Part shown: positions 2,079 to 22,795 of the stretch, piece after piece
Layout of the letters: every line of letters begins with the position of its first letter
Numbering within the stretch: the stretch's first letter is position 1
Source: a virus
Strand: one strand, 5' to 3'
DNA length: 37,333 bases
IMG/VR virus record: IMGVR_UViG_3300032893_000173
Coordinates: 1-37,333 of that record
Notes under the pieces: model-generated
Told to the model about the DNA's origin: nothing
What the model saw: only the letters and a program-made list of their open reading frames with translations
The model's database searches: none
Position numbers and translations under genes: made by a program

Positions 2079-2091
2079 TACAGTGGCATAC
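2079..2091 (+). promoter_or_regulatory. Leaderless promoter (TACAGT-N7-ATG) for the glycosyltransferase gene
   Basis: TACAGT at 2079-2084, preceded by GGGA, is followed by GGCATAC and ATG 2092. A TGAC-containing -35 (ATGACC 2057-2062) sits 16 bp upstream. The same block occurs before the gene at 5360. It decides the start: the upstream GTG at 2083 lies inside the -10 box. Confidence 0.6.
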
Positions 2092-3270
2092 ATGCCCAGC
2101 GTGTCCCTGTTCACCCCCAGCCATAACCCTCGGTTTCTCGACGAGGTCTATGACTCGCTCCTGACCCAGACACGCGGCGACTGGGAGTGGATCGTCCTGC
2201 TCAACAACGGTGCGTCGTGGGCGCCGCCGGTCGACGACCGGGTCAAGGTCCACACGGCCGGCCCCGTCCCGGGCGTCGGCGCCGCCAAGAAGCTCGCCTG
2301 CTCCTACGCCACGGCCGAGATCCTCGTGGAGCTCGACCACGACGACCTCCTGCTCCCGGCCGCCGTGGAGGCCATCGTGGCCGAGTTCGAGCAGGAACCA
2401 GGGGCCTCGCTGGTCTACTCGGACTTTGCCCAGATGAACGAGGACGGGTCACCCAACTTCGACGAGTTCGACCCCGGCCCGGGCTGGCGCTACCACGACG
2501 AGGACAAGTGGCACGTCTGCGAGGCCCTGCCGGCCACCCCGCACAACGTCAGCTACATCTGGTACGCGCCCAACCACGTCCGCGCCTTTCGCCGGGAGGC
2601 ATACGAGCAGGTCGGAGGCTATGACGGGTCGCTCGGGGTGGTCGACGACCAAGACCTCATGTGCCGGCTCTACCAGGCGGGCGACTTCGCCGGCATCCCC
2701 GAGCTGCTCTATCTCCAGCGCATCCACCCGGCCATGACCCAGAAGGTCCGCAACGCCGAGATCCAGGTCAAGACGGTCGAGCTCTACGACCGCTACGTGC
2801 AGGACAACGCCCTGGCTTGGGCCGCTCGGAACAAGCTGCTCTGCCTCGACCTCGGCGGCGCCCACAACTCGCCCCCGGCCTACGTCCCGGTCGACTGGAG
2901 CCTCGGCTCCGACGCCCATCGGGTGCTCCACGAGCACGCCGGCCGAGTGGGGGTGATCCGTGCCGTGGACTTCTTGGAGCACAACGACGCCCTCAAGATG
3001 ATGACCGACATCTGGCGGGCCCTCGCCCCCGGCGGGATGCTGCTCTCCATGACCCCGTCGACGGACGGCCGCGGGGCCTTCTGCGACCCCACCCACATCT
3101 CGTTTTGGAACGAGCTCAGCTTTCGCTACTACACAGACCCCGAGTACTCGAAGTACCTCCCGGTGCCCCCGCCCCTGTTCCGCCTCTCCCGCCTGGCGAC
3201 GGTCTACCCGAGCCCCTGGCACGAGGACAACCAGGTCCCCTACGTCCTATCCAACCTCGTGAAGGAGTAG
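2092..3270 (+). CDS. Family 2 glycosyltransferase fused to a methyltransferase-like domain
   Basis: The product is 392 residues from ATG 2092. Residues ~3-215 form a GT-A family 2 glycosyltransferase: SLFTPSHN at the N-terminus, the metal-binding ELDHDD motif (D82, D84, D85), and VVDDQDLMCRL (~183-192) with the catalytic-base acidic pair. Residues ~248-390 resemble a class I SAM methyltransferase: LLCLDLGG as a motif-I-like loop, VDFLEH (~292-297), then ALAPGG (~310-315) and DPTHISFW (~332-339). The motif-I glycine loop is short, so the second domain may bind or modify a sugar without classical methylation. Lying between fibre genes and beside an oxygenase gene, it may decorate virion proteins, the host surface or DNA; the target is unknown. 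Confidence 0.8.
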   Translation: MPSVSLFTPSHNPRFLDEVYDSLLTQTRGDWEWIVLLNNGASWAPPVDDRVKVHTAGPVPGVGAAKKLACSYATAEILVELDHDDLLLPAAVEAIVAEFEQEPGASLVYSDFAQMNEDGSPNFDEFDPGPGWRYHDEDKWHVCEALPATPHNVSYIWYAPNHVRAFRREAYEQVGGYDGSLGVVDDQDLMCRLYQAGDFAGIPELLYLQRIHPAMTQKVRNAEIQVKTVELYDRYVQDNALAWAARNKLLCLDLGGAHNSPPAYVPVDWSLGSDAHRVLHEHAGRVGVIRAVDFLEHNDALKMMTDIWRALAPGGMLLSMTPSTDGRGAFCDPTHISFWNELSFRYYTDPEYSKYLPVPPPLFRLSRLATVYPSPWHEDNQVPYVLSNLVKE

Positions 3271-3288: not shown

Positions 3289-3990
3289 ATGGCTCAGGGA
3301 TCACTCACCACGTCGAAGGACCTGGCAACGCTGCTCAAGACCACGGTCACCCAGTTCCAGGGCACGGCCCCGACCTCGGACGGCCTGGGAGAACTCATCT
3401 CGGCCATCAACACGGCCATCTACGGCTTCTCGCCGGCCGGCGGCCGGCCCGCTCAGTACCTCGGGCCCACGGGCGCCATCGCTGAGACCATGGACCGGGC
3501 CTCGACCACGTTCGCCTACGCGTCAGTGGCCTCGGGCACGCTCTACTTCTCGGCCCTCTACCTCCCGGTCAACACTGTCGTATCGAACCTCAACACCGTG
3601 ACCGGGTCGACGGCGTCGAGCGGCGTGGCGCACAACTGGATGTGCCTGTGCGACAACAACCGGAACCTGCTCGCCATCTCGGCCGACAACACCAGCGCCG
3701 ACCTCACCGCCAACACGCTTGAGACCTACGCCATCGCCAACGTGGCGGCCGGCGCGGCGACCAGCTTCACGACCACCTACAGCGGGCTCCACTACGTCGG
3801 CTTCATGATCGCGACCGGGACCACCCAGCCGACGATCCAGGGGCAGACGGACCTGAGCTCGACCATGATGGGCCTGGCGCCCAAGCTCTGCGGAACGTCC
3901 GACACGTCGCTCACGACTCCGTCGACCTTCCCCAAGCAGTTCACGGCCATCACGTCGGCCGCGAGCCAGTTGTACATGTTCGTGTCCTGA
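3289..3990 (+). CDS. Putative tail fibre or head-fibre protein with shared N-terminal module
   Basis: The protein has 233 residues. Residues ~10-42 (LLKTTVTQF, then PTSDGLGEL, then AINTAI) closely match the N-terminus of the long collagen-like fibre starting at 36264, so this is probably a common virion-attachment module. The remainder is Thr/Ser/Ala-rich with predicted beta structure (YFSALYLP, HYVGFMIATG, QLYMFVS at the end), like compact fibre-tip or decoration domains. It is the first gene of the fibre/lysis block and has its own leaderless promoter, which may allow abundant expression. I infer a short fibre or receptor-binding role. Confidence 0.7.
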   Translation: MAQGSLTTSKDLATLLKTTVTQFQGTAPTSDGLGELISAINTAIYGFSPAGGRPAQYLGPTGAIAETMDRASTTFAYASVASGTLYFSALYLPVNTVVSNLNTVTGSTASSGVAHNWMCLCDNNRNLLAISADNTSADLTANTLETYAIANVAAGAATSFTTTYSGLHYVGFMIATGTTQPTIQGQTDLSSTMMGLAPKLCGTSDTSLTTPSTFPKQFTAITSAASQLYMFVS

Positions 3991-3993
3991 TCG

Positions 3994-4620
3994 GTGCCGA
4001 GCATTGAGGACTTCTGCACCCTGGCCATGGCCCAGGTCGGCGTTCCCTACGTCTACGGCGGCGTCAATCTCGCGAGCTCTCCTGACCCTGGCCTGGACTG
4101 TTCGGGGCTGCCCTATGCGGTTAGCTTGGCGCTCGGCCAGGAGATACCTCGAACCTCGGAAGCTCAGTTTGCGGGTCTCCCTCGTGTCGACGCGTCGGCC
4201 ATCCGGCGCGGCGATCTCATCTTCTACGACGTGCCTGAGGACACCGATCCGCAACCGGCCCACGTTGCGATCTGGTGGAACTCCCACACGGTGCTCCAGG
4301 CGCCGCACACCGGCACGGACGTACAGTTCTCGGCGCCTCTGCCGTACACCATCATGGGCTACGGCCGGCTGCCGTTTCCCGACGCTCCAATCCCCCCACC
4401 ACCACCCAAACCGGAGGCTTTGACGCAAATGGGAGTCGCAATCGCACAGAACGGGGACGTGATCTCGACGTGGGTCGGCAAGGACGGCACGCCGGCCGCC
4501 GGGCACGCGTTCGTGATGACACAGAAGGCCGGCACCCAGGGCCAGCCCCCGACCGGGCAGAACACCAGCATCATCGACGTGACGGCCACCTGGCCGTTCT
4601 TCCAAGTACAGGAGGGCTAA
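3994..4620 (+). CDS. NlpC/P60 cell-wall peptidase (lysin or virion-associated hydrolase)
   Basis: The product is 208 residues from GTG 3994. Residues ~4-127 form an NlpC/P60 cysteine peptidase domain: VPYVYGG, the catalytic Cys in DCSG (C36), the catalytic His in PAHVAIW (H90) and a candidate third polar residue H105 in QAPHTG. RRGDLIFY (~71-78) is the usual strand before the His. A Pro-rich linker (six prolines near residue 133) leads to a ~65-residue C-terminal domain that may bind the wall or mediate attachment. The family cleaves peptide stems of peptidoglycan. Immediate linkage to a holin gene supports an endolysin role. No signal peptide is visible, so release would depend on the holin. 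Confidence 0.88.
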   Translation: MPSIEDFCTLAMAQVGVPYVYGGVNLASSPDPGLDCSGLPYAVSLALGQEIPRTSEAQFAGLPRVDASAIRRGDLIFYDVPEDTDPQPAHVAIWWNSHTVLQAPHTGTDVQFSAPLPYTIMGYGRLPFPDAPIPPPPPKPEALTQMGVAIAQNGDVISTWVGKDGTPAAGHAFVMTQKAGTQGQPPTGQNTSIIDVTATWPFFQVQEG

Positions 4621-5359: not shown

Positions 5360-5647
5360 ATGGAACAGGAACCCAGCAGATTCGAGATCCGCTACACGTC
5401 CGAGGGCTGGCGCGTGTGGGACCGCAAGTGGGAGATGTACCACGGCTCCCCCGAGCTGAACTACTCGTCGGCCGACAAGAAGTGCCGGCTGATGAACCAC
5501 CAGGATCGGTGTCCCCCGCCCCGGCCCGCCATGGACGGCACCCGCCAGGTCGACGTGTCCAACAACGGCTTCGACCCCGTGAACGGCTCGCCGGGCTACT
5601 GGCTGAGCGACCGGGGCGCCGACCGGATGTTCGGGGGCGAGTACTGA
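5360..5647 (+). CDS. Hypothetical early protein
   Basis: The 95-residue, Trp/Tyr/Asp-rich soluble product (FEIRYTSEGWRVWDRKW near the start) is the first gene of the replication operon and is read from a leaderless message. Two cysteines do not form a clear metal site. No family is recognised. Its stop (TGA 5645-5647) shares an A with the ATG of the ERF gene, so the two are probably translationally coupled. A role as a DNA-annealing partner or an early host-takeover protein is possible but unproven. Confidence 0.7.
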   Translation: MEQEPSRFEIRYTSEGWRVWDRKWEMYHGSPELNYSSADKKCRLMNHQDRCPPPRPAMDGTRQVDVSNNGFDPVNGSPGYWLSDRGADRMFGGEY

Positions 5648-6315
5648 TGGAGACCTCCGAGCAGACCAACGAGATCCAGGCGGCCCTGGTGGCCTTCCAC
5701 CTGGAGCACCCCGACGTGAAGAAGGATTCCCAGAATCCCCATTTCCGCAACACGTTCGCCTCCCTGGCGGCCAACATCAACGCGGCCGACGAGGTCGCGG
5801 CCAAGCACGGCCTGTGCGTGGTGCAGCTCATGGACACGCTCTCGACCGACGACCGCATCTACGACGCCCTCACGACCCGCATCTGCCACACGTCGGGCCA
5901 ATGGATGCAGGCCACCATGCGACTCCACTTGCCCAAGGACGACCCCCAGGGTCAGGGCTCGTCGATGACCTATGGCCGCAGGTACAATTACCAGGGCGCG
6001 TACGGTCTGGTCGCCGAGGACGACGACGCCGAGGCGGCCGTGGCGCCGGCACGCTCGGCCCCCGCACAGTCGAGCTCCTCCGGCTTCTCGGGCTCCTACG
6101 ACCGTTCGCCGGCGGCGCCGTCCGGCCAGGCCACCACCAAGCAGATCAATTGGACCCGGCGCCTGTTGCGGGACAACGGCTACCTGAACCCGTCCGACGT
6201 GATCGCCTACGTCAAGACGCTCAAGGTCGACTTCCCGGCCAACTGGGACGGTGACGCCGGCACGGCTCCCCGCGAGCTCGTGTCGGCCATCATCGACGAC
6301 CTCAAGGATCAGTGA
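5647..6315 (+). CDS. erf: ERF-family single-strand annealing recombinase
   Basis: The product is 222 residues from ATG 5647. The N-terminal domain (~1-128) carries the ERF hallmark: FRNTFASLAAN, a beta-strand core, then GQGSSMTYGRRY and GAYGLVAEDDDA (~102-128), matching the conserved S-x-x-T-Y-x-R-R-Y...EDDDA pattern. A Ser/Ala/Pro-rich linker leads to a C-terminal region (~155-222, TTKQINWTRRLLRDNGY) typical of ERF partner-binding tails. ERF proteins anneal complementary single strands during phage recombination, circularisation and concatemer formation. With no phage DNA polymerase visible, this is the central DNA-metabolism protein here. The start at ATG 5647 is supported by overlap with the preceding stop. 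Confidence 0.9.
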   Translation: METSEQTNEIQAALVAFHLEHPDVKKDSQNPHFRNTFASLAANINAADEVAAKHGLCVVQLMDTLSTDDRIYDALTTRICHTSGQWMQATMRLHLPKDDPQGQGSSMTYGRRYNYQGAYGLVAEDDDAEAAVAPARSAPAQSSSSGFSGSYDRSPAAPSGQATTKQINWTRRLLRDNGYLNPSDVIAYVKTLKVDFPANWDGDAGTAPRELVSAIIDDLKDQ

Positions 6316-9142: not shown

Positions 9143-9703
9143 TCACATGGTGCGCCGGTGCCCGGCCACGCGTGCCGGCCGACGCTCGACCGGCACGCGT
9201 GCGCCGCAGTAGAAACAAGGCACGTCGTCGGGCGACCAGGTGCGATCAGGCACGGACAGGGTCTCGACGGACGGCCGCGCCTGGTAGAGCTCGTCGTCGT
9301 CGTCGTCGTCGTGGTCGAGCAGCTCGGAGAATCGGGCCCTCATGTCGTCGTGCCCGGCCGTCGTCCTGGTCTCGTTCCAGTGTTCGCCGGCCCGGCGCAC
9401 CCATGCGCGCTCGGACTCGTCGGCCCGGCGGTCGAGCTCCCATCCACAGGTGCACGACGCCCGGCGGCCATCGTCGTCGAATTGCCAGGTGTGGCGCTCG
9501 GTGGCGCCGGCGTGGTCGGCCAGTCGGGCCCGAGCCGAGTCGATCTGGGCCCGGTGCTCGTCGTCGGCGGCCAGCTCGGCCGGCGTGCTCGGGCGTGCCG
9601 ACTGGAACAGGCTCGCCGCGGCGACGGTCGCACCGTCGGCCGTTGCGTACACGAGCTCGTCGCCGGCCGGGTCGCCCACGTCGAACAATGAATCCTGATG
9701 CAT
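9143..9703 (-). CDS. Hypothetical protein with cysteine pairs and poly-Asp tract
   Basis: ATG 9703 is chosen because AGGAGG lies upstream in the leader GAACAGGAGG; the open frame upstream to 9808 lacks an RBS and overlaps the previous gene. The product has 186 residues. It has an acidic Ala-rich N-terminal half, then RASCTCGWELD and, near the C-terminus, VPCFYCGARVPVE. The C-x-C and C-x-x-C pairs could form a zinc site. Between them lies a run of Asp residues encoded by a TCG/GTC triplet repeat. A metal-stabilised early protein is possible; no family is recognised. Confidence 0.65.
   Translation of the reverse strand: MHQDSLFDVGDPAGDELVYATADGATVAAASLFQSARPSTPAELAADDEHRAQIDSARARLADHAGATERHTWQFDDDGRRASCTCGWELDRRADESERAWVRRAGEHWNETRTTAGHDDMRARFSELLDHDDDDDDELYQARPSVETLSVPDRTWSPDDVPCFYCGARVPVERRPARVAGHRRTM
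9291..9312. repeat. TCG trinucleotide repeat encoding poly-Asp
   Basis: About seven tandem TCG units on the plus strand (GAC on the coding minus strand) encode the Asp run in the 9143-9703 gene. Such tracts are prone to slippage in whole codons. Confidence 0.8.
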
Positions 9704-9722: not shown

Positions 9723-10280
9723 TCAAAACGCCGGTAGGTCCGGCACGGTCGAGAGTCGCTCCGTTTCGATGGCCCAGGCCTCGACGGCCCGAGCGTCGAA
9801 GATGTCACGTCCCGACAGTGTGGTCGCCGGGGCGGGGAACGGAACCGGAAGCTGCCCGCGGCGAGTCCTGGCGCGCCACTGGGCGACTGCGTTCGTGGTC
9901 ACTCCGAGCCATTCGGCGACCTCGGACGGCCCGAGCAGGTCGGCCAGCGTCGGCTCGGAGTCGTCGTAGAGCTCGTGCCGGCGGCCGTCCTGTAGGGCCA
10001 TGACGGCTCGCACGAGGCCATCCCAGAAGGTCTCAACGTCAAGGCCCATGTTCGCGGCGACCTGGTCGGGAGCGAACCCGCGGTGCGCATCGCACAGGTG
10101 CCGGCGGATGAATCGGCGCGTCCTGTCGTCGGCCAGGTAGTACGCGTCCCATTCGCCCGAGCTCGTGCCGGCACGCTCGGCCGTCGACGGGGCCGGTGGC
10201 AGTTCCAGGTACGTCCCGCCCATGTACGTGTCGAGCAGGTCGACGCGCTCGGCCGCCGTGGTGACGTGAAGGTCGGCCAT
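9723..10280 (-). CDS. Hypothetical protein with C-terminal MerR/excisionase-type HTH
   Basis: The product is 185 residues from ATG 10280. Residues ~1-105 are helical and acidic with no recognised family (HLCDAHRGFAPDQVAANMGL looks like an additional small helical motif). Residues ~110-175 resemble a MerR/AlpA/excisionase helix-turn-helix: DLLGPSEVAEWLGVTTNAVAQW, then RTRRGQLPVPFPAP, then IFDARAVEAWA, the usual helix-turn-helix then wing then helix order. The start overlaps the upstream stop by one base. It is a candidate regulator of its own operon, whose promoter carries a dyad site. Confidence 0.75.
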   Translation of the reverse strand: MADLHVTTAAERVDLLDTYMGGTYLELPPAPSTAERAGTSSGEWDAYYLADDRTRRFIRRHLCDAHRGFAPDQVAANMGLDVETFWDGLVRAVMALQDGRRHELYDDSEPTLADLLGPSEVAEWLGVTTNAVAQWRARTRRGQLPVPFPAPATTLSGRDIFDARAVEAWAIETERLSTVPDLPAF

Positions 10281-10765: not shown

Positions 10766-11194
10766 TCAGACCATGGGGACTGTCATGGTGGCGTGACGGC
10801 TCTGGAGGCTCCCTCCCTCCCTCGGCTGGCGATGGGATGGGACCAGACCGTCACACCGGGGCCATCGACCGGTCGCATAGTCCCTGGTCAGAGGCTTGCG
10901 CCGGGCCCATTTGGCCCACCCAGCCAGGAGCAGTTGAAGCTGAGGCGTCATCCACCCACACGTTTCAGAAATTTTCGGGAGGGTGGCGAGCTCCCTGGCC
11001 TCGAGTTCCCGGGTTTCATGCGGCGCAGGAGCGCAGCCGCAGGCGAGCATCCGAGCATCAGGGCGCCAGCCCTGTGCCTTTCCTGCCTGGCGGCATAGAT
11101 CTGAGAAGGGGTTAGCGGCCTCGGGCCCAAGAAAATGATCCACGCGCTCGCAGAGCCTCAGCCGGGCCAACCCCTCGGGCACCTTGATTCCCAT
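10766..11194 (-). CDS. Doubtful 142-residue ORF in the gene-poor region
   Basis: An uninterrupted minus-strand frame reads MGIKVPEGLARLRL at the start and contains QLLLAGWAKWARRK. It has no RBS or leaderless promoter at the expected distance, uses AT-ending codons more often than neighbouring genes, and overlaps dyad site O3. It could be a real accessory gene with foreign codon use, a decayed gene or a chance frame. Nothing in it is recognised. Confidence 0.25.
   Translation of the reverse strand: MGIKVPEGLARLRLCERVDHFLGPEAANPFSDLCRQAGKAQGWRPDARMLACGCAPAPHETRELEARELATLPKISETCGWMTPQLQLLLAGWAKWARRKPLTRDYATGRWPRCDGLVPSHRQPREGGSLQSRHATMTVPMV
10780..10799. promoter_or_regulatory. Dyad operator-like site O3
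   Basis: CTGTCATG-N4-CGTGACGG, identical in both half-sites to O2 and 121 bp away from it. An additional lone half-site (CCGTCACA) lies near 10847. Confidence 0.55.
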
Positions 11195-11248: not shown

Positions 11249-11325
11249 TGCTTGAATCCTGCGGAATAGGGTTGCATTCTGCGCCTTCCGTGTTAGGATG
11301 TCAATGCTTGAATCCGCTGAATATG
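11249..11325. repeat. Direct repeat pair flanking a promoter
   Basis: TGCTTGAATCC occurs at 11249-11259 and 11305-11315, and each copy is followed by a similar ten bases (GCGGAATAGG after an extra T, and GCTGAATATG). The copies bracket the promoter at 11272-11299, and the second lies in the first transcribed bases. Confidence 0.55.
11272..11299 (+). promoter_or_regulatory. Promoter driving the structured RNA region
   Basis: TTGCAT (11272-11277), 16 bp, TAGGAT (11294-11299). Transcription should start near 11306, 18 bases before a long RNA stem. No convincing gene follows; the ATG-led frame 11298-11510 has unusual composition. Confidence 0.5.
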
Positions 11326-11371
11326 TAACGGCCCGGTGCTCCTACCCCTGGAGTGCCGGGTCGTTGCGCGT
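11306..11371 (+). ncRNA. Candidate structured RNA with 19-bp uninterrupted stem
   Basis: Bases 11324-11342 pair without a gap with 11350-11368, closing a 7-nt loop (UACCCCU). There are 14 Watson-Crick and five G-U pairs (11324-11368, 11326-11366, 11331-11361, 11337-11355, 11338-11354). On the opposite strand those five would be C-A mismatches, so the structure favours a plus-strand RNA, in line with the promoter at 11272-11299. It resembles no RNA family I know. It could be a small RNA, a 5' regulatory leader or a processing site. The 3' end is unknown, and the span may extend through the shorter CCGGG/CCCGG stem at 11372-11394. Confidence 0.55.
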
Positions 11372-11379
11372 CCGGGGGG

Positions 11380-11408
11380 TTGTCTTTCGCCCGGCCTTCC
11401 CTTACACT
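11380..11408 (+). promoter_or_regulatory. Promoter for a short RNA starting at a hairpin
   Basis: TTGTCT (11380-11385), 17 bp, TACACT (11403-11408), the same -10 hexamer as the 5325 and 11507 promoters. The expected start, seven bases downstream (11415), is the first base of a perfect 7-bp hairpin. No start codon follows. Confidence 0.45.
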
Positions 11409-11414
11409 GACCTC

Positions 11415-11506
11415 GACCGAGCCGCCTCGGTCTGCATGGTTGGTCGGGGGTCCCGGTTCACCTCCTGTTCTTCGGTGCGGCGCCAACGCACTCGGGCCGG
11501 GGCCCC
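11415..11506 (+). ncRNA. Candidate small RNA with anti-Shine-Dalgarno segment
   Basis: The inferred transcript begins with GACCGAG-CCGC-CTCGGTC (11415-11432), a perfect 7-bp stem with a tetraloop. It then carries CACCTCCTGTTC (11459-11470) in an apparently unpaired stretch, followed by a GTGCG/CGCAC stem (11475-11491) and a GC-rich end just before the next promoter. The 12-base segment is perfectly complementary to the leader and RBS of the 6456 gene (6438-6449). It is complementary over at least ten bases (GAACAGGAGG) to the leaders of the minus-strand genes starting at 9047 and 9703. Regulation of those genes by base pairing is a hypothesis. Alternatively the segment is the relic of a minus-strand RBS. 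Confidence 0.4.
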
Positions 11507-11542
11507 TTGACCATGCACCCCTGATGCATTACACTGGGATGC
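11507..11542 (+). promoter_or_regulatory. Leaderless promoter for the 11543 operon
   Basis: TTGACC (11507-11512), 17 bp, TACACT (11530-11535), seven bases GGGATGC, then GTG 11543 and ATG 11546. It is nearly identical to the promoter before 5360. Confidence 0.75.
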
Positions 11543-11878
11543 GTGATGCTCGGATTGGCGCTTCGACTCGGACTGGCCGCACCGCTGCCCTTCATGGTGC
11601 ACCACCAGGCCCCCGCGCCGCCGCCAGCCGCCATCCGCGTCGAGCTCCCGGCCGTGGCCACGGCACCCCCGACGGCCACCACCACCACCACCACGACCAC
11701 GGCCCCCGCCAAGTGCTCGCTCACCTGGACCCTGGTCTCGCCCTACTCGTTCGGCAACGCTGACGGCGAGCTCGCCCCGCCCGGCACCACCGGGACGTGG
11801 TCGGTCCCCTGCTCGGCCGTTCCCGCCACCGAGGCGCCCTTCCCCTCCGACACCGTGTTCGACGTGGAACATGACTGA
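11543..11878 (+). CDS. Secreted or membrane-anchored Thr/Pro-rich small protein
   Basis: The product is 111 residues from GTG 11543 (or ATG 11546), read leaderless. The N-terminus is hydrophobic (LGLALRLGLAAPLPF), like a signal peptide or anchor. A Pro/Ala/Thr-rich linker contains eight consecutive threonines encoded by an ACC triplet repeat. The last ~55 residues hold two cysteines (KCSLTWTLVSPYSFGNADGE, then WSVPCSAVP), perhaps a small disulfide-bonded beta domain outside the cell. A superinfection-exclusion or surface role is possible but not shown. It overlaps the HNH gene by 8 nt. Confidence 0.6.
   Translation: MMLGLALRLGLAAPLPFMVHHQAPAPPPAAIRVELPAVATAPPTATTTTTTTTAPAKCSLTWTLVSPYSFGNADGELAPPGTTGTWSVPCSAVPATEAPFPSDTVFDVEHD
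11677..11700. repeat. ACC trinucleotide repeat encoding poly-Thr
   Basis: Tandem ACC codons with one CG-containing interruption encode eight threonines in the linker of the 11543-11878 product. It can change length in whole codons by slippage. Confidence 0.75.
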
Positions 11879-12281
11879 CGCTGAGCGGTTTTGGTCCCGC
11901 ATCGTGGTGCGACCCTCCGGTTGCTGGGAGTGGCAGGGTTCTAAGAACGGCAAGGGCTATGGGTTCTTTCGTATCTGGGGCAAACAACGGCAACCTCACC
12001 GGGTTGCGTATGAGGTCTTTGTCGGACCCATCCCAGAGGGGTTCCACATAGACCACCTGTGCCGCAATCCTCCATGCTGTAACCCCGACCATCTGGAGCC
12101 GGTTACACCCAGAGAGAACGTGATGCGTGGTGAGGGGTTTGGCAGGGTGAACGCAGAGAAGGTGTCATGCCCAAGGGGTCATCCTTATGACGCCGTATCT
12201 ATTGACGGTGACCGTAGGTGCCGTCGATGTGATGCAGCGAACGCCAGGCGACGGTGGCACGCCAAGAAGGAGGCTTCGTGA
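11871..12281 (+). CDS. HNH endonuclease
   Basis: The product is 136 residues from ATG 11871. It opens with ERFWSRI, then CWEWQGSKNGKGYG (common N-terminal motif of phage HNH homing-type nucleases), QPHRVAYEVFVG, then the HNH core HIDHLCRNPPCCNPDHLEPV with catalytic H-I-D-H and a final N-x-D-H-L. A second Cys cluster (CPRGHPYD, then RRCRRCDAANARRR) is the usual C-terminal zinc finger. Free-standing HNH genes of this type are mobile elements that nick DNA. It lies at the head of the mosaic gene cluster and may have helped spread it. Its last codons (K-K-E) carry the AAGGAGG RBS of the next gene. Confidence 0.88.
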   Translation: MTDAERFWSRIVVRPSGCWEWQGSKNGKGYGFFRIWGKQRQPHRVAYEVFVGPIPEGFHIDHLCRNPPCCNPDHLEPVTPRENVMRGEGFGRVNAEKVSCPRGHPYDAVSIDGDRRCRRCDAANARRRWHAKKEAS

Positions 12282-15383: not shown

Positions 15384-15839
15384 GTGGTCGACGAGCCTCT
15401 GACGCTGCCGGCCCCGATGCTGGCCGAGATCATCCGGCGCCTGCTGCGCGTCGGCGTGCCCCCGACCGCCATCGCCAACGCCTTCGATATGGAGGCCGGC
15501 CCGATCAAAGTCGTGGCGCGCAACCTGCGCCGGGAGGTCTACGGCACCGACGAGCTCGCGGAGGCGCACACCTACTTGAACTGGCGCTCGTTTGAGGAAC
15601 TGCAACTGATCCTGACCAACGGCTCGCCCGAGCTGCGGGCCAAGGTAGCCATGCAGATCCAGAGCAAGGCCATGGCGATCACGGCACGGCAGACCCCCGA
15701 AGAAGTCTCGCTCGCCCGGGCCGAGATGGCCATGCTGACCGAGGGCCTCGACATCACCGACGACGATCTCGAAGCCGAGGCCGCGGCCTACGACGAGATT
15801 CGGGCCCAGTTCGTGCCGAGTGACGACCTGGAGGAATAG
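15384..15839 (+). CDS. Putative terminase small subunit
   Basis: The product is 151 residues from GTG 15384. An N-terminal helix-turn-helix-like segment ([23 protein letters not shown], then [12 protein letters not shown]) is followed by helical, oligomerisation-type segments ([20 protein letters not shown], then [13 protein letters not shown]) and an acidic C-terminus. Its size, DNA-binding N-terminus and direct overlap with the terminase large subunit gene (TAGTG) support a small terminase that recognises the packaging site. Sequence identity to a known family was not established. Confidence 0.7.
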
Positions 15840-17542
15840 TGCAACCGCGCAAGAAGCTGAACCTGTTTCCGTGGATGCGCACACTGTCCATCAAGAACAA
15901 GGACGCCAAGCTGGAGCGGTTCCCGCTCTACGAGGGGTCGGAGTTCTACTGGGCCCAGTCCGTGTTCCTGCGTGAGGTCGAGCGGCAGTACAACGCCGGC
16001 AAGCCCATCCGCATCATCGTGCTCAAGTGCCGCCAGATCGGCATTTCGACGGCCACCGAGGGACTCCTGTTCCTGTGGTCGTTCCTGTTCCCGGGCACCA
16101 ACTCGCTCGTGTTGTCCAAGGACCGGGAGAACACCGAGACCATCTTCGAGATGACCAAGCTGATGTGGGACACCTGGGCCTTCAAGTCCCTGTTCACCAC
16201 GAGCCGAAAGAGCTCACGCCGGCTGTCCTTCGAAGAAACGCTGTCGAACATCCGAGTGGCCACGGCCAAGGGCGACCAGGTCGGCCGAGGCACCACGGTG
16301 CGGGCCGTCCACGGATCGGAGGTCGCCTTCTGGGAGGACCCCGACGCCATCATGGGCCCGCTCACCGAGGCCATCCCCCACAAGCCGGGCACCATCATCG
16401 TGCTGGAGTCCACGGCCAACGGTGTCGGCGGGTTCTTCTACGAGACCTGGATGGCGGCCGAGCGCGGTGAGTCAGAGTACGTGCCCCTGTTCTTCCCGTG
16501 GTGGCGCCACTCGGAGTATCAGGTCAAGAAGCACAACCTGACGCCACGCATGTTGACCGAGAAGGAGAAGGCGCTGGCCGAGCGCTTCGACCTGAACCTC
16601 GCACAACTGGCCTGGCGCCGGCGCAAGATCCGCACGACGTTCAACGGCGACGAGGATCTGTTCGACCAGGAATACCCGGCCTCGCCCGAGATGGCGTTTC
16701 TCTCGACCGGCCGCAACGTGTTCGACCTCGAATCACTGGCCGACTGCTACCTCGCCCCGGGCGCCGCCAACAAGGCCGGCCAGGTGGTCGGTGTCACCCG
16801 CGGCCGGTTGATGAACCACGGCGGAACGCTCAAGCTCTACCACGAGCCCAAGGGCGAGCTGCTCGTGTTCAAGACCCCCGACCCTTCGGGGCGGATCAAG
16901 TACGTGGTGGCGGCCGACCCGGCCCGCACCACCGAGGGCGACCCGTGCTGCATCCAGGTGCTCCGACGCGACACGCTCGAACAGGTGGCGGTGTGGCACG
17001 GCTGGGCCACCCAGAACGTGCTGGCCGAGGAAATCGCCAACCTCGCCCACTGGTACAACGACGCCATTGTGAACTGCGAGATCGAAGGTGGGGGTGGTGG
17101 TGTGATCGCCGTGCTCCAGCATCTCGGGGTCCCGAACATCTGGCGCTGGCGCCTGCCCGACCGCCCGCTGCACAAGCGTGGCAACGTGCTCGGGTGGTCG
17201 ACCAACTTCAAGACGAAGTCCTGGGGCATCGGCCAGCTCCAGCACTACATCTCCAAGCGCCAGCTGATGCTGCACGACGCCACGACCTACCACGCCCTGC
17301 GTGAGTACGTGAACATCGACGGGGTCGAGATGGGCCCCGCCGGCCGGGACGGCCACGACGACTCGGTCATGGCCCTGATGATCGCCCTGATGACCACCAT
17401 CACCGAGGACCCGGTCAACTACGCCGAGATCTACGGCATGGGCCAGCTCGCCATCGACCAGATCCGAGCTGAGCAACCCGCGGCCAACTACGATCCTGTG
17501 GAACTGGAGATGGACACCGGAGGCTGGGGAGAGATTGAATGA
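15839..17542 (+). CDS. terL: Terminase large subunit
   Basis: The product is 567 residues from GTG 15839. ATPase domain: Walker A-like KCRQIGIST (~63-71), Walker B SEVAFWED (~160-167) and coupling motif LESTANG (~189-195). The nuclease (RNase H-like) domain has YVVAADPARTTEGD (first metal Asp), NCEIEGGGGGV (second acidic residue) and GRDGHDDSVMALM (third, Asp). It pumps genomic DNA into the prohead through the portal and cuts concatemers. Length and motif order are typical for phage TerL. It overlaps the FmdB-like gene by 4 nt. The sequence looks intact. Confidence 0.93.
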   Translation: MQPRKKLNLFPWMRTLSIKNKDAKLERFPLYEGSEFYWAQSVFLREVERQYNAGKPIRIIVLKCRQIGISTATEGLLFLWSFLFPGTNSLVLSKDRENTETIFEMTKLMWDTWAFKSLFTTSRKSSRRLSFEETLSNIRVATAKGDQVGRGTTVRAVHGSEVAFWEDPDAIMGPLTEAIPHKPGTIIVLESTANGVGGFFYETWMAAERGESEYVPLFFPWWRHSEYQVKKHNLTPRMLTEKEKALAERFDLNLAQLAWRRRKIRTTFNGDEDLFDQEYPASPEMAFLSTGRNVFDLESLADCYLAPGAANKAGQVVGVTRGRLMNHGGTLKLYHEPKGELLVFKTPDPSGRIKYVVAADPARTTEGDPCCIQVLRRDTLEQVAVWHGWATQNVLAEEIANLAHWYNDAIVNCEIEGGGGGVIAVLQHLGVPNIWRWRLPDRPLHKRGNVLGWSTNFKTKSWGIGQLQHYISKRQLMLHDATTYHALREYVNIDGVEMGPAGRDGHDDSVMALMIALMTTITEDPVNYAEIYGMGQLAIDQIRAEQPAANYDPVELEMDTGGWGEIE

Positions 17543-17883
17543 GGTTCTACGAGTTCAAGTGCCCCAACCACGGCACCTTCGACACCAGGAACTACGGCCA
17601 GCACCAGCCCTGTCCCTCGTGCGGAGCGAGCTCGCCCCGGTTCTACGGCTCGGTCACGTTCGGCGCCGTGCTCCACGAGCACTACAACCCCGCCTTCGGG
17701 ACCGTGGTCCGTTCCCAGCGCCACGCCCGGGAGCTGGCCAAGGTCGCCTCCGCTGAGAAGTCGGCCCAGCTCGGGATGTCCGTCGACCTCGAAGTCGTCG
17801 ACGCCGCCGACCCCGACGTGCACAAGATCGACAAGGCCGAGATGGAGCACTACGCCGCGGAGACCGCAAAGGCCAACGCATGA
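17539..17883 (+). CDS. FmdB-like zinc-ribbon protein
   Basis: This 114-residue protein opens with MRFYEFKCPNHGTFD, then CPSCGASSPRFY, the C-x2-H/C...C-x2-C ribbon of the FmdB/putative regulatory family. The C-terminal half is helical (RHARELAKVASAEKS, then KAEMEHYAAETAKA). Such small zinc-ribbon genes are often found between terminase and portal genes in phages, where their role is not established. ATGA overlaps join it to both neighbours. Confidence 0.75.
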   Translation: MRFYEFKCPNHGTFDTRNYGQHQPCPSCGASSPRFYGSVTFGAVLHEHYNPAFGTVVRSQRHARELAKVASAEKSAQLGMSVDLEVVDAADPDVHKIDKAEMEHYAAETAKANA

Positions 17884-19682
17884 CCATGACCATGACCCAG
17901 CAAGGGTCCCTGCCGCGCTCGCCCGACGTGGAGCTCACCGACCGGCTCTACGAGATGTACCAGACGGCCCGGCGGGCCAAGCAGACCAAGCTGGAGACCT
18001 GGCGCCGGAACTACCTGCTGGCCATGAACCGCTGGGGCCGCTCGCCCGACGACCCCCGTGACTCGGAGATCTACCCCATCCTGCGCGCCCGGGCCTCGTG
18101 GATGACAGACCAGGAGACCCGCTTCAACATCGACCCGGCCACCGAGCCCTATTCGACGTTCTACGACTACGAGATGAAGCTGGGCGACCAGCTCGAAACC
18201 CTGCTCAACTCGGCCTACCGGGTGGGGTCATGGAACCGTGACATCGCCATGGCACTCTGGGACGCGCCGATCTACGGTGCCGGCATCCTCAAAGCCGGCT
18301 GGGACTCGGGCGCGCTCGGGGGCCTGGGCGACATCACGCTCGCCCGGGTCGACCCGTGGGGGTTCTACCCCGACCCCAACGGCACCAGCGACGAGGACTG
18401 CGGGTACTACTTCGAAGTCCACAAGTGGGGCATCGACGAGATCACCCGCCGCTTCCCCAACGTTCCGCTCGAGCGCCTCGAAGCAGCGATCGCCGCCGGC
18501 GACCGGGGCCAGATGGACGGCTCGCCGCAGAAGCAGGAGTTTCCCCGCTACACCCGTGACGGCATCCCGCTGAACCTGGGCCAGGGCCCGGTCGCCGTGG
18601 GTCTGCCCGGCCAGGGAACCACGCAACGAGCTCTGCTGAACCAGGGCGTGAACGTCTACGAGTGCTGGGTCCACGAGAACGTGGAGACCGAGCGCGAGTC
18701 GACCGACCCGAACCACGAGTCCCCCGAGGTCGTCATCAAGGACCAATGGCGTGTGATCGTGTTCACGAACGACGTGATCCTGCTGAACGAGACCGCCGAG
18801 GATCTGTTCGACATCGACCGTCACCCCTACTTCCGCTTCGTCGACGACGAGATCGGGGAATTCTGGTCGACCGCCCTGGTGTCGCACCTCGCGCCCCTCC
18901 AGCTGTTCATCAACCAGCTTCTCTCGGCCGCCGCCTCGAACATCCTGCTGATCTCGAACCCGGTGTTCGTCGACTACGAGGACTCGGGAATCGGGCGCAC
19001 TGCGATCACCAACCGGCCCGGGCAGCGCCTCACGCTCAAGAAGTCGATCGGCCAGCAGAACCTCAAGCCCGACTGGCTCTCGCCCCCGCAGATGTCCCAG
19101 GACATTCCGAGCCTCATCGAGTTTTCGATCGGCCGCATGGAGAACATCGCCGGCCTCTCGGCCGTGTCGAAGGGCCAGCAGCCGGCCGGGCGCCAGGCCC
19201 AGCAGACGATCCAGTCCGTCCAAGAGTCCGGCTTCGTGTCCATCCGTGGGTCGCTGCGCAACCTGGAGACCACGCTCTCCAAGCTGGGCGAGTACCTGAT
19301 CCACATCCTGATCGTCAACTACGACATCCCCCGGGTGGTCGCCATCGTGGGCCAGGAGGGCGAGGCGCCGGCGCTGCGACTGGCTGCGTGGCACTTCTGG
19401 GTCCCGACCAAGGAGGGCAAGGTCCCCCTCAAGTGCGCGCTGACCGTGAACGCCGGCAGCTCGGCGCCGACCTCCCGACAGGCCCGGGTGGCCGAAGCCG
19501 ACGCGCTCTACGCCATGCACGCCATCCCGCGCAAGTACCTGCTGGAGACCCACCGCATCCCCCACGCGTCCGAGATGGCGCAGGAGATGGACCAAAAGGA
19601 CGCCGAGGCGGCCCAGGCGGCGCTCGCCGCCAAGGGTGGGCAGGGCCAGCCACGGGGCCCGGGCACCGGCCATCCCCACTGA
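17880..19682 (+). CDS. Portal protein
   Basis: The protein has 600 residues and three near-consecutive in-frame ATG codons at the start (M-T-M-T-M-T). Features typical of portals of short-tailed phages: an N-terminal helical domain (TDRLYEMYQTARRAKQTK), a beta-rich wing (GAGILKAGWDSG, then LARVDPWGFYPDPN), the middle segment GEFWSTALVSHLAPLQ, then NQLLSAAASNILLIS (stem/crown helices), and a Gln-rich RQAQQTIQSVQESG followed by an Ala/Gln/Gly-rich tail. It forms the dodecameric DNA channel at one capsid vertex. Position right after terminase and before scaffold supports this. Confidence rests on layout and fold-type features more than on exact motifs. Confidence 0.85.
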   Translation: MTMTMTQQGSLPRSPDVELTDRLYEMYQTARRAKQTKLETWRRNYLLAMNRWGRSPDDPRDSEIYPILRARASWMTDQETRFNIDPATEPYSTFYDYEMKLGDQLETLLNSAYRVGSWNRDIAMALWDAPIYGAGILKAGWDSGALGGLGDITLARVDPWGFYPDPNGTSDEDCGYYFEVHKWGIDEITRRFPNVPLERLEAAIAAGDRGQMDGSPQKQEFPRYTRDGIPLNLGQGPVAVGLPGQGTTQRALLNQGVNVYECWVHENVETERESTDPNHESPEVVIKDQWRVIVFTNDVILLNETAEDLFDIDRHPYFRFVDDEIGEFWSTALVSHLAPLQLFINQLLSAAASNILLISNPVFVDYEDSGIGRTAITNRPGQRLTLKKSIGQQNLKPDWLSPPQMSQDIPSLIEFSIGRMENIAGLSAVSKGQQPAGRQAQQTIQSVQESGFVSIRGSLRNLETTLSKLGEYLIHILIVNYDIPRVVAIVGQEGEAPALRLAAWHFWVPTKEGKVPLKCALTVNAGSSAPTSRQARVAEADALYAMHAIPRKYLLETHRIPHASEMAQEMDQKDAEAAQAALAAKGGQGQPRGPGTGHPH

Positions 19683-20240: not shown

Positions 20241-20264
20241 GCTAGCCGTGCCTTGAGCACGCAA

Positions 20265-20306
20265 GTGGTGGGGTGGGAGAACCGGCCAGGTAGCCCACCC
20301 CACCAC
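20265..20306 (+). promoter_or_regulatory. 13-bp perfect hairpin between micro-genes and head genes
   Basis: GTGGTGGGGTGGG (20265-20277) is perfectly complementary to 20294-20306 across a 16-base loop. No T-run follows, so a simple intrinsic terminator is unlikely. It lies in a 115-bp gap upstream of the 20356 gene and could be a processing, attenuation or mRNA-stability element. Confidence 0.6.
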
Positions 20307-20355
20307 CACATCATCACCAAGCAGCACCACGCATCATCGAACGAGAGAAGGAAAC

Positions 20356-21826: not shown

Positions 21827-22795
21827 ATGGCCACGCCGATCTGGGGTACAAACACCCTCACGTCGCTGTCGAACCGCTGGATCATGCCGTTCATCACCGA
21901 CGTAGTGTTCACCTCAAGCCCGTTGACCTTCCGTTTCAAGGCCCGCAACAAGATGGTCATCAAGGGCGGCCTCTGGATTGAGGTTCCGTGGATGTACGCC
22001 AAGCCCAACTCGGGCGGGTGGTACTCCGGTCCCGAGATCCTCCAGACCATCCCCTTCGACGTGGTCCAAGACGGGTCGATGCCCTGGGCCCAGCTCTACG
22101 ACAACGTCACGGTCGACGGCCTGACGCTGAACCAGGCTGAGTCCGAGGAAAAGGCCATGGACTACCTCACGGCCCAGTTCGAGATGTCCAAGCTGAACTG
22201 GCTGGACAACCTGGCCTACGGCTTCTGGTCGGACGGGACCAACACGAAGTCGATGGTGGGCCTGCTGGCCGCCGTCGACAACGGCACCGTGGCGCCGACC
22301 TACGCCGGCCTCACCCGGTCGTCGAACACCTGGCTCAACTCCCAGGAGGACACGACCACCACCACCATGACGCTGAACGCGCTGAACAACCTGTTCGGCT
22401 CGTGCACCACCGGCGGCCGGGCCCCGACCCTCATCATCGGGACGCGCGCCAACTACGTGCGCTACCAGAACCTCAACGTGACGATCCAGCAGTTCCCCAC
22501 GGCTCCGGGCCTGCGGGACCAGCAGTTCGCCGCCGCCGGCTTCGACCACCTCGTGTTCAACAACGTGCCCTGGCTCGTGGACGACCACATCCCGACCACC
22601 GGGACCGAGGGCAACCTGTTCATGCTGAACGAGGAATACTTCAAGTTCATCGTGGGCAAGGGCGGCAACTTCGTCATCGAAGATTTCGTGAAGCCCCCGA
22701 ACCAGGACGCCATGACGGCGATCATGAAGCTCTACTGCCAGCTCGTCTGCACCAACCCCCAGCGCCAGGGCAAGTTCACGGCGCTGGCCGCGTAA
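21827..22795 (+). CDS. Major capsid protein (HK97 fold)
   Basis: The 322-residue protein has a strong RBS (AAGGAG) seven bases before ATG 21827. The order of segments fits an HK97-type capsid protein of short-tailed phages: an N-arm (TSLSNRWIMPFITDVVFTSS), an E-loop/beta region (RFKARNKMVIKGG), a P-domain helix (AMDYLTAQFEMSKLNWLDNL), a Thr-rich loop, an A-domain (APTLIIGTRANYVRYQN, then GFDHLVFNNVPWLVDDH), and a C-terminal strand (DAMTAIMKLYCQLVC). No large N-terminal delta domain is present, consistent with a separate scaffold. It would be the most abundant virion protein. Confidence 0.85.
   Translation: MATPIWGTNTLTSLSNRWIMPFITDVVFTSSPLTFRFKARNKMVIKGGLWIEVPWMYAKPNSGGWYSGPEILQTIPFDVVQDGSMPWAQLYDNVTVDGLTLNQAESEEKAMDYLTAQFEMSKLNWLDNLAYGFWSDGTNTKSMVGLLAAVDNGTVAPTYAGLTRSSNTWLNSQEDTTTTTMTLNALNNLFGSCTTGGRAPTLIIGTRANYVRYQNLNVTIQQFPTAPGLRDQQFAAAGFDHLVFNNVPWLVDDHIPTTGTEGNLFMLNEEYFKFIVGKGGNFVIEDFVKPPNQDAMTAIMKLYCQLVCTNPQRQGKFTALAA

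Follow-up and report, generated by a model that had tools for sequence, protein, structure and literature searches.

What does a long, fully paired hairpin behind its own promoter do at the entrance to the late operon of a virus? The question is raised by a non-coding locus in the window analysed here (i.e., the whole 37,333-base IMG/VR virus record IMGVR_UViG_3300032893_000173), whose hairpin a preliminary description had read as a structured regulatory RNA of no known family. The genes that give the locus its context are as follows:

5416-6315: Erf-type annealing protein (PHROGs)
11543-11878, plus strand: ORF that opens the rightward operon (111 aa, GC3 0.89), with the HNH endonuclease gene next
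11871-12281: HNH endonuclease (PHROGs)
15839-17542: terminase large subunit (TerL; PHROGs)
17880-19682: portal (PHROGs)

Downstream of the control region, the rightward packaging/structural operon carries the HNH, TerL and portal genes and that of a conserved protein in the capsid position (21827-22795), which is 93-94% identical to copies in several other contigs and is taken, from its position alone, to be the presumed major capsid protein. A 73%-identical copy of this protein is encoded by a contig assigned to an Acidimicrobiaceae MAG, so the host of this uncultured virus is probably an Acidimicrobiia bacterium. The sole host lead is L124 / G012:C197, a contig of a related phage within an Acidimicrobiaceae MAG; host-genome searches found TerL in one Acidimicrobiaceae MAG contig only, the sequenced part of which stops short of any recognisable control region. 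Blastn against cultured phages matched HNH genes only, and the comparison had no annotated relative to draw on because the TerL proteins of the cultured phages listed were merely 26-29% identical (i.e., remote relatives). Elsewhere in the window, a phage gene at 2083-3270, two genes ahead of a tail-protein match (3994-4620), carries a glycosyltransferase family 2 domain and a weak methyltransferase match.

The elements in and around the locus are listed below, with promoters and leaderless starts as predicted from sequence:

10905-10985, plus strand: conserved upstream element GCCCATTTGGCCC..GCGTCATCCACC..AATTTT, the same element being found in four relatives
11249-11259, plus strand: copy 1 of the direct repeat, TGCTTGAATCC, 5' of the P1 -35 hexamer
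11272-11299, plus strand: promoter P1, TTGCAT-N16-TAGGAT, the -10 running into TGTCAA; TANNNTGTCAA conserved in relatives
11276-11304, minus strand: leftward promoter-like site TTGACA-17-CAGAAT, face to face with P1, 10/12 consensus bases
11305-11315, plus strand: copy 2 of the direct repeat, TGCTTGAATCC, where the P1 transcript is predicted to begin
11324-11368, plus strand: hairpin B, a 19-bp stem-loop (fold, simulations, covariation, model search)
11370-11377, plus strand: GTCCGGGG tail directly 3' of hairpin B, identical in the relatives L115 and L113
11434-11516, plus strand: second long hairpin, directly upstream of P2 (z -3.7)
11507-11535, plus strand: promoter P2, TTGACC-N17-TACACT, 7 nt upstream of a GTG start, predicted leaderless

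As described earlier, the arms of hairpin B (11324-11342, TGTAACGGCCCGGTGCTCC; 11350-11368, GGAGTGCCGGGTCGTTGCG) pair completely, forming 19 gap-free pairs, five of them G-U, around the 7-nt loop TACCCCT. This is the longest gap-free stem of the window with both strands considered, and none of 300 first-order Markov versions of the 37,333-base window reached 19 pairs (maximum 18). The folding-energy check proposed in the preliminary description bore out its view of a strand-specific structure, with the plus-strand RNA of 11324-11368 folding at -35.4 kcal/mol (z -8.5) vs an unremarkable z of -0.75 on the opposite strand (11325-11377). No Rfam 15 family was found at or above its gathering cut-off, ARAGORN made no tRNA or tmRNA call, and the exact stem sequence had no match in IMG/VR. 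The overlapping ORF at 11298-11510 has a GC3 of 0.70 vs 0.91-0.95 in the structural genes checked, on which grounds a small ORF across the stem was rejected; the ~280 bp described as lacking a convincing gene do lack one, but the non-coding stretch is longer and extends at least to 11542. Measured against a canonical (L-shaped) intrinsic terminator, hairpin B has the stable GC-rich hairpin and lacks a U-run directly after the stem, where the window continues GCGTCCGGGGGG; the terminator scan did not list it. Other strong hairpins occur elsewhere in the window, coding DNA included, and the strongest 50-nt fold on the minus strand (9162-9211, 16-bp stem, -42 kcal/mol) lies within a leftward ORF or at its end.

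Relatives were collected by TerL and capsid searches as contigs with the same gene order, which gave nine phages: the window, G003 (L115), G011 (L113), G001 (L002), G007 (L114 reversed), G008 (L112), L053, L055, and L041. The order P1, strong hairpin, predicted leaderless start was found in all nine, a count that is a description and not a blind test because the layout elements were chosen by eye before distances were measured. The module lies downstream of an element of the 10905-10985 type or, where that element was not found or fell off the contig, at the matching place upstream of TerL. The hairpin is always positioned between P1 and the first rightward gene, 25-76 nt from the -10, and the sequence between P1 and hairpin is unconserved and unrelated among the relatives. 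The start codon follows the hairpin by exactly 24 nt in four phages and by 175-197 nt in the window and L041, and a second -10 (TANNNT) stands 6-7 nt upstream of the start codon in 9/9 phages. Comparison of these genomes thus shows that P1, its bracketing repeats, the hairpin, and the predicted leaderless start form a conserved module at the sequence level. Among distant TerL relatives, automated hairpin listing was usable for L053 and L055 only, being too noisy in the others. Strong hairpins also occur between the portal and capsid modules in the window (20260-20309, z -4.8) and L002 (7868-7913, z -7.4), and at about the same position in L005 (11128-11172), and may represent a conserved attenuator within the structural operon.

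The upstream promoter claimed in the preliminary description is present, and its support rests on conservation, since P1 agrees with the consensus at 8/12 bases (i.e., weakly) and was not listed by the promoter scan. Five phages have a P1 -10 of TAGGAT, TACCAT, TAGGTT, TACTCT or TACGCT followed by GTCAA, and in these five TANNNTGTCAA, the P1 -10 region, occurs exactly once per contig or contig piece, on the plus strand and always at P1. G001 has TAGAGT-GCAAC, L055 keeps TGTCAA and lacks TANNNT, and G008 and L041 have different promoter-like sequences at this position, so that P1 is best supported in six. The TTGACA of the leftward site (TGTCAA on the plus strand) is kept in G003, G011, G007, L053, and L055, which suggests divergent transcription. 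Between hairpin B and P2, the window carries both the second hairpin and an additional promoter-like pair (TTGTCT-17-TACACT, picked out by eye at about 11381-11409), and it is therefore ~150 nt longer here than most relatives. The second hairpin resembles the 3' arm of the relatives' hairpins (CCGGGGCCCCTTGACCATG vs CCGGGGTCCTTGCATG); hairpin B is taken as the ortholog on the strength of a model search and of its GTCCGGGG tail.

Further upstream, the intergenic element GCCCATTTGGCCC..GCGTCAT..AATTTT is common to five genomes including the window, and lies 0.4-1.3 kb upstream of P1 in the four relatives. At 10905-10985, where the leftward gene block gives way to the rightward one, it comprises an inverted repeat (GGGCC-CATTT-GGCCC), GCGTCATCCACC, and an AATTTT tract, and may be an origin, operator or promoter region. 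The predicted product of a minus-strand ORF at 9723-10280 weakly matches a helix-turn-helix domain (HTH_23) and is a candidate regulator of the control region; L112 has a homologue at 3722-3892.

The 11-bp direct repeat reported to bracket the promoter was likewise found, as TGCTTGAATCC on either side of P1, and has no third exact copy in the window, so that scattered operators of the stoperator type were rejected. Bracketing repeats recur in six relatives (L115, L113, L002, L053, L055, and, gapped, L114), each with a different sequence, i.e., TGGCAAGTTCC, GCGAAAGTCC, TGCAAGGTCC, TCGGTCGTAGCA, CCGTCGACCTG, and the gapped GCCATAA(AA)GTCTCC of G007; G008 and L041 have none. Taken alone, the window repeat is moderately unusual, as a repeat of equal length was found at 9/244 control places. 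Control places with as long a repeat numbered 0/78 in G003, 7/78 in G011, and 2/82 in G001, and the exact core of the G007 repeat was reached at 35/128 (not significant). It is the recurrence at the same place, rather than these single-case statistics, that argues for functional repeats. In three relatives (G003, G011, and L053), a small 5'-terminal RNA hairpin carries the downstream copy in its loop, and one of its stem positions reads G-C, U-G, and U-A across the three.

The window stem (GTAACGGCCC..GGGTCGTTGC-GCGTCCGGGG) was aligned with its counterparts in G003 (GCAAG(TC)GACCCCGG..CCGGGGTCCTTGC-ATGTCCGGGG), G011 (GCAAG(TT)GAGCCCGG..CCGGGCTCCTTGC-ATGTCCGGGG), and L053 (GTGACGGCCCCCC..GGGGGGTCGTTGC-GCGTTTTTGG). 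With G001 added (five phages), two-sided changes were present at 10/15 pairs and 94.7% of cells were paired vs 33-51% with the partner slid, and a four-phage alignment gave 6/15; N padding and manual anchoring make these alignments lean towards structure. In the covariance search that had been proposed, a model built from L053, G003, and G011, with the window left out, returned the window stem as its best match of the window (E=1e-5), and one built on the window, G003, and G011 hit L053 at the right spot without significance (E=4.4). The possibility that the stem varies without compensating changes, raised beforehand as a refutation, was thus looked at and did not materialise, within the limits of the hand anchoring and the L053 E value. 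An exact search for L053-type clamps found L053 only. A model match in L050 (E=0.008) lies downstream of TerL and was not counted as a member, and the four weak matches among 296 Acidimicrobiia genomes, two of which sit just past stop codons, were rejected as family members and read as host terminators or chance. Taken together, the compensatory changes, the strand asymmetry, and the independent-model match make a structured plus-strand RNA well supported, and show, as far as sequence comparison reaches, that the relatives preserve the hairpin as a fold of the plus-strand RNA.

Because hairpin and layout are kept despite sequence change, we consider the hairpin a real control element and most likely a transcription stop signal. 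In its specific form, this reading takes hairpin B to be the terminator-type hairpin of a short P1 leader transcript, immediately upstream of the late operon, and to this we give about an even chance of being right. The P1 transcript would start at about 11300-11306, and a phage-specific protein may bind both repeats and control P1. RNA polymerase from P1 would mostly halt at the hairpin, releasing a small RNA of ~65-110 nt, and the late genes would then be transcribed from P2 as leaderless mRNA, or by a modified P1 polymerase that reads through. The hairpin would thereby act between P1 and the late genes as a gate or insulator, and in the window would not be the last barrier because the second hairpin is nearer P2. 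GCGTTTTT follows the L053 hairpin, i.e., three bases and then five U, which is close to a canonical terminator; the window and the other relatives have no U-run after the hairpin. Of the regulatory RNA proposed in the preliminary description, the plus-strand structure, the promoter, and the absence of a gene stand, but a regulatory RNA in its own right was not established. A terminator-type leader is simpler, as the hairpin always closes the stretch between P1 and the leaderless start, L053 has its U-run, and two of the four chromosomal matches lie just past stop codons.

Several other readings were weighed against a terminator-type leader. Hairpin B could be the stabilising body of a free-standing regulatory small RNA, a stable 65-240-nt P1 product acting in trans on phage or host targets, and its conserved promoter, lack of an ORF, covarying hairpin, and, in several relatives, extra small 5' hairpin all fit this. 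Yet the interval from P1 to the hairpin varies over 25-76 nt of unrelated sequence, GTCCGGGG after the stem is the only conserved single-stranded seed, and the hairpin is always found at the late-operon entrance, which makes such an RNA unlikely. Somewhat less probable still is that hairpin B sits in the 5' UTR of a late mRNA started at P1 and protects the message or tunes translation of the first gene without termination. A stable hairpin near the 5' end can stabilise a transcript, and the hairpin-to-start distance is a constant 24 nt in four phages; however, the start codon is 175-197 nt away in the window and L041, and a -10 placed 6-7 nt before each start predicts leaderless, hairpin-free mRNAs.

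The leftward promoter overlapping P1 offers another possibility, namely an antisense switch in which the 5' ends of the two divergent transcripts, complementary over 10-12 nt because the repeats are in direct orientation, would pair. The minus-strand TTGACA is kept with P1 in most relatives, copy 2 is displayed in the 5' hairpin loop of G003, G011, and L053, and in G007 copy 1 reads GGAGACTTTTATGGC on the leftward strand, a ribosome site plus ATG. This pairing nonetheless appears improbable, as the leftward -10 elements are poor outside the window, the leftward copy has no consistent loop placement, in the other phages no leftward start codon could be matched convincingly to the repeat, and protein operators account equally well for paired repeats. 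Slightly more speculative again is an RNA late switch, in which pairing of these 5' ends would decide whether polymerase passes the hairpin; the repeats are displayed in a hairpin loop of the rightward RNA in several relatives, and a switch of this kind is not known to have been described in phages. That the inverted repeat arose by chance, or acts purely at the DNA level with no RNA role, seems very improbable: the genome is GC-rich and holds the further strong hairpins noted above, but 0/300 simulations, stability on the plus strand only, and compensatory changes all stand against it.

Among known systems, the lambda pR' / 6S leader RNA / tR' arrangement likewise places a promoter, a short leader, and a terminator hairpin immediately ahead of the late operon, whereas the locus described here has a second, predicted leaderless promoter beyond the hairpin. 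The Q-type layout of late promoter, short leader, hairpin, and late operon is present, by sequence layout only. Phage 21 QBE is alike in having direct repeats at the promoter, but those are 6 bp long and lie between -35 and -10 (PMC6606751), whereas here repeats of about 10-12 bp flank the whole promoter, a position on which a Q-binding element was rejected. No Q-type antiterminator was found among 20 selected ORFs searched against PHROGs and 20 against Pfam, Q families being very divergent. We did not file the locus under Q-dependent antitermination because the repeats flank the promoter and the scanned ORFs include no Q-like gene. U-less ('I-shaped') actinobacterial terminators share the strong GC hairpin without a U-run, and chromosomes of the host lineage carry similar hairpins past stop codons, whereas hairpin B stands in a leader ahead of genes and not after a gene. 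Such terminators have been described in mycobacteria, although the same review cites work in which mycobacterial polymerase requires a U-tract, and termination by these hairpins is disputed in the literature (PMC12288462). In mycobacteriophages L5, D29, and StarStuff, the early promoter Pleft drives an abundant non-coding RNA, which lends some weight to the small-RNA reading; this Cluster A RNA (L5, D29) is alike in lacking an ORF and in a promoter that heads a transcription unit, but it is an early RNA of about 500 bp encoded at the right end of the genome, without an evident stem-loop terminator (PMC5712189).

To our knowledge, no late-gene control has been described for phages of uncultured Acidimicrobiia. 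The layout found in nine members, with its fixed geometry of repeat, promoter, repeat, hairpin, and leaderless start, marks a predicted control site at which termination vs read-through is directly testable, and the phage-specific repeats would provide a handle on each phage's regulator.
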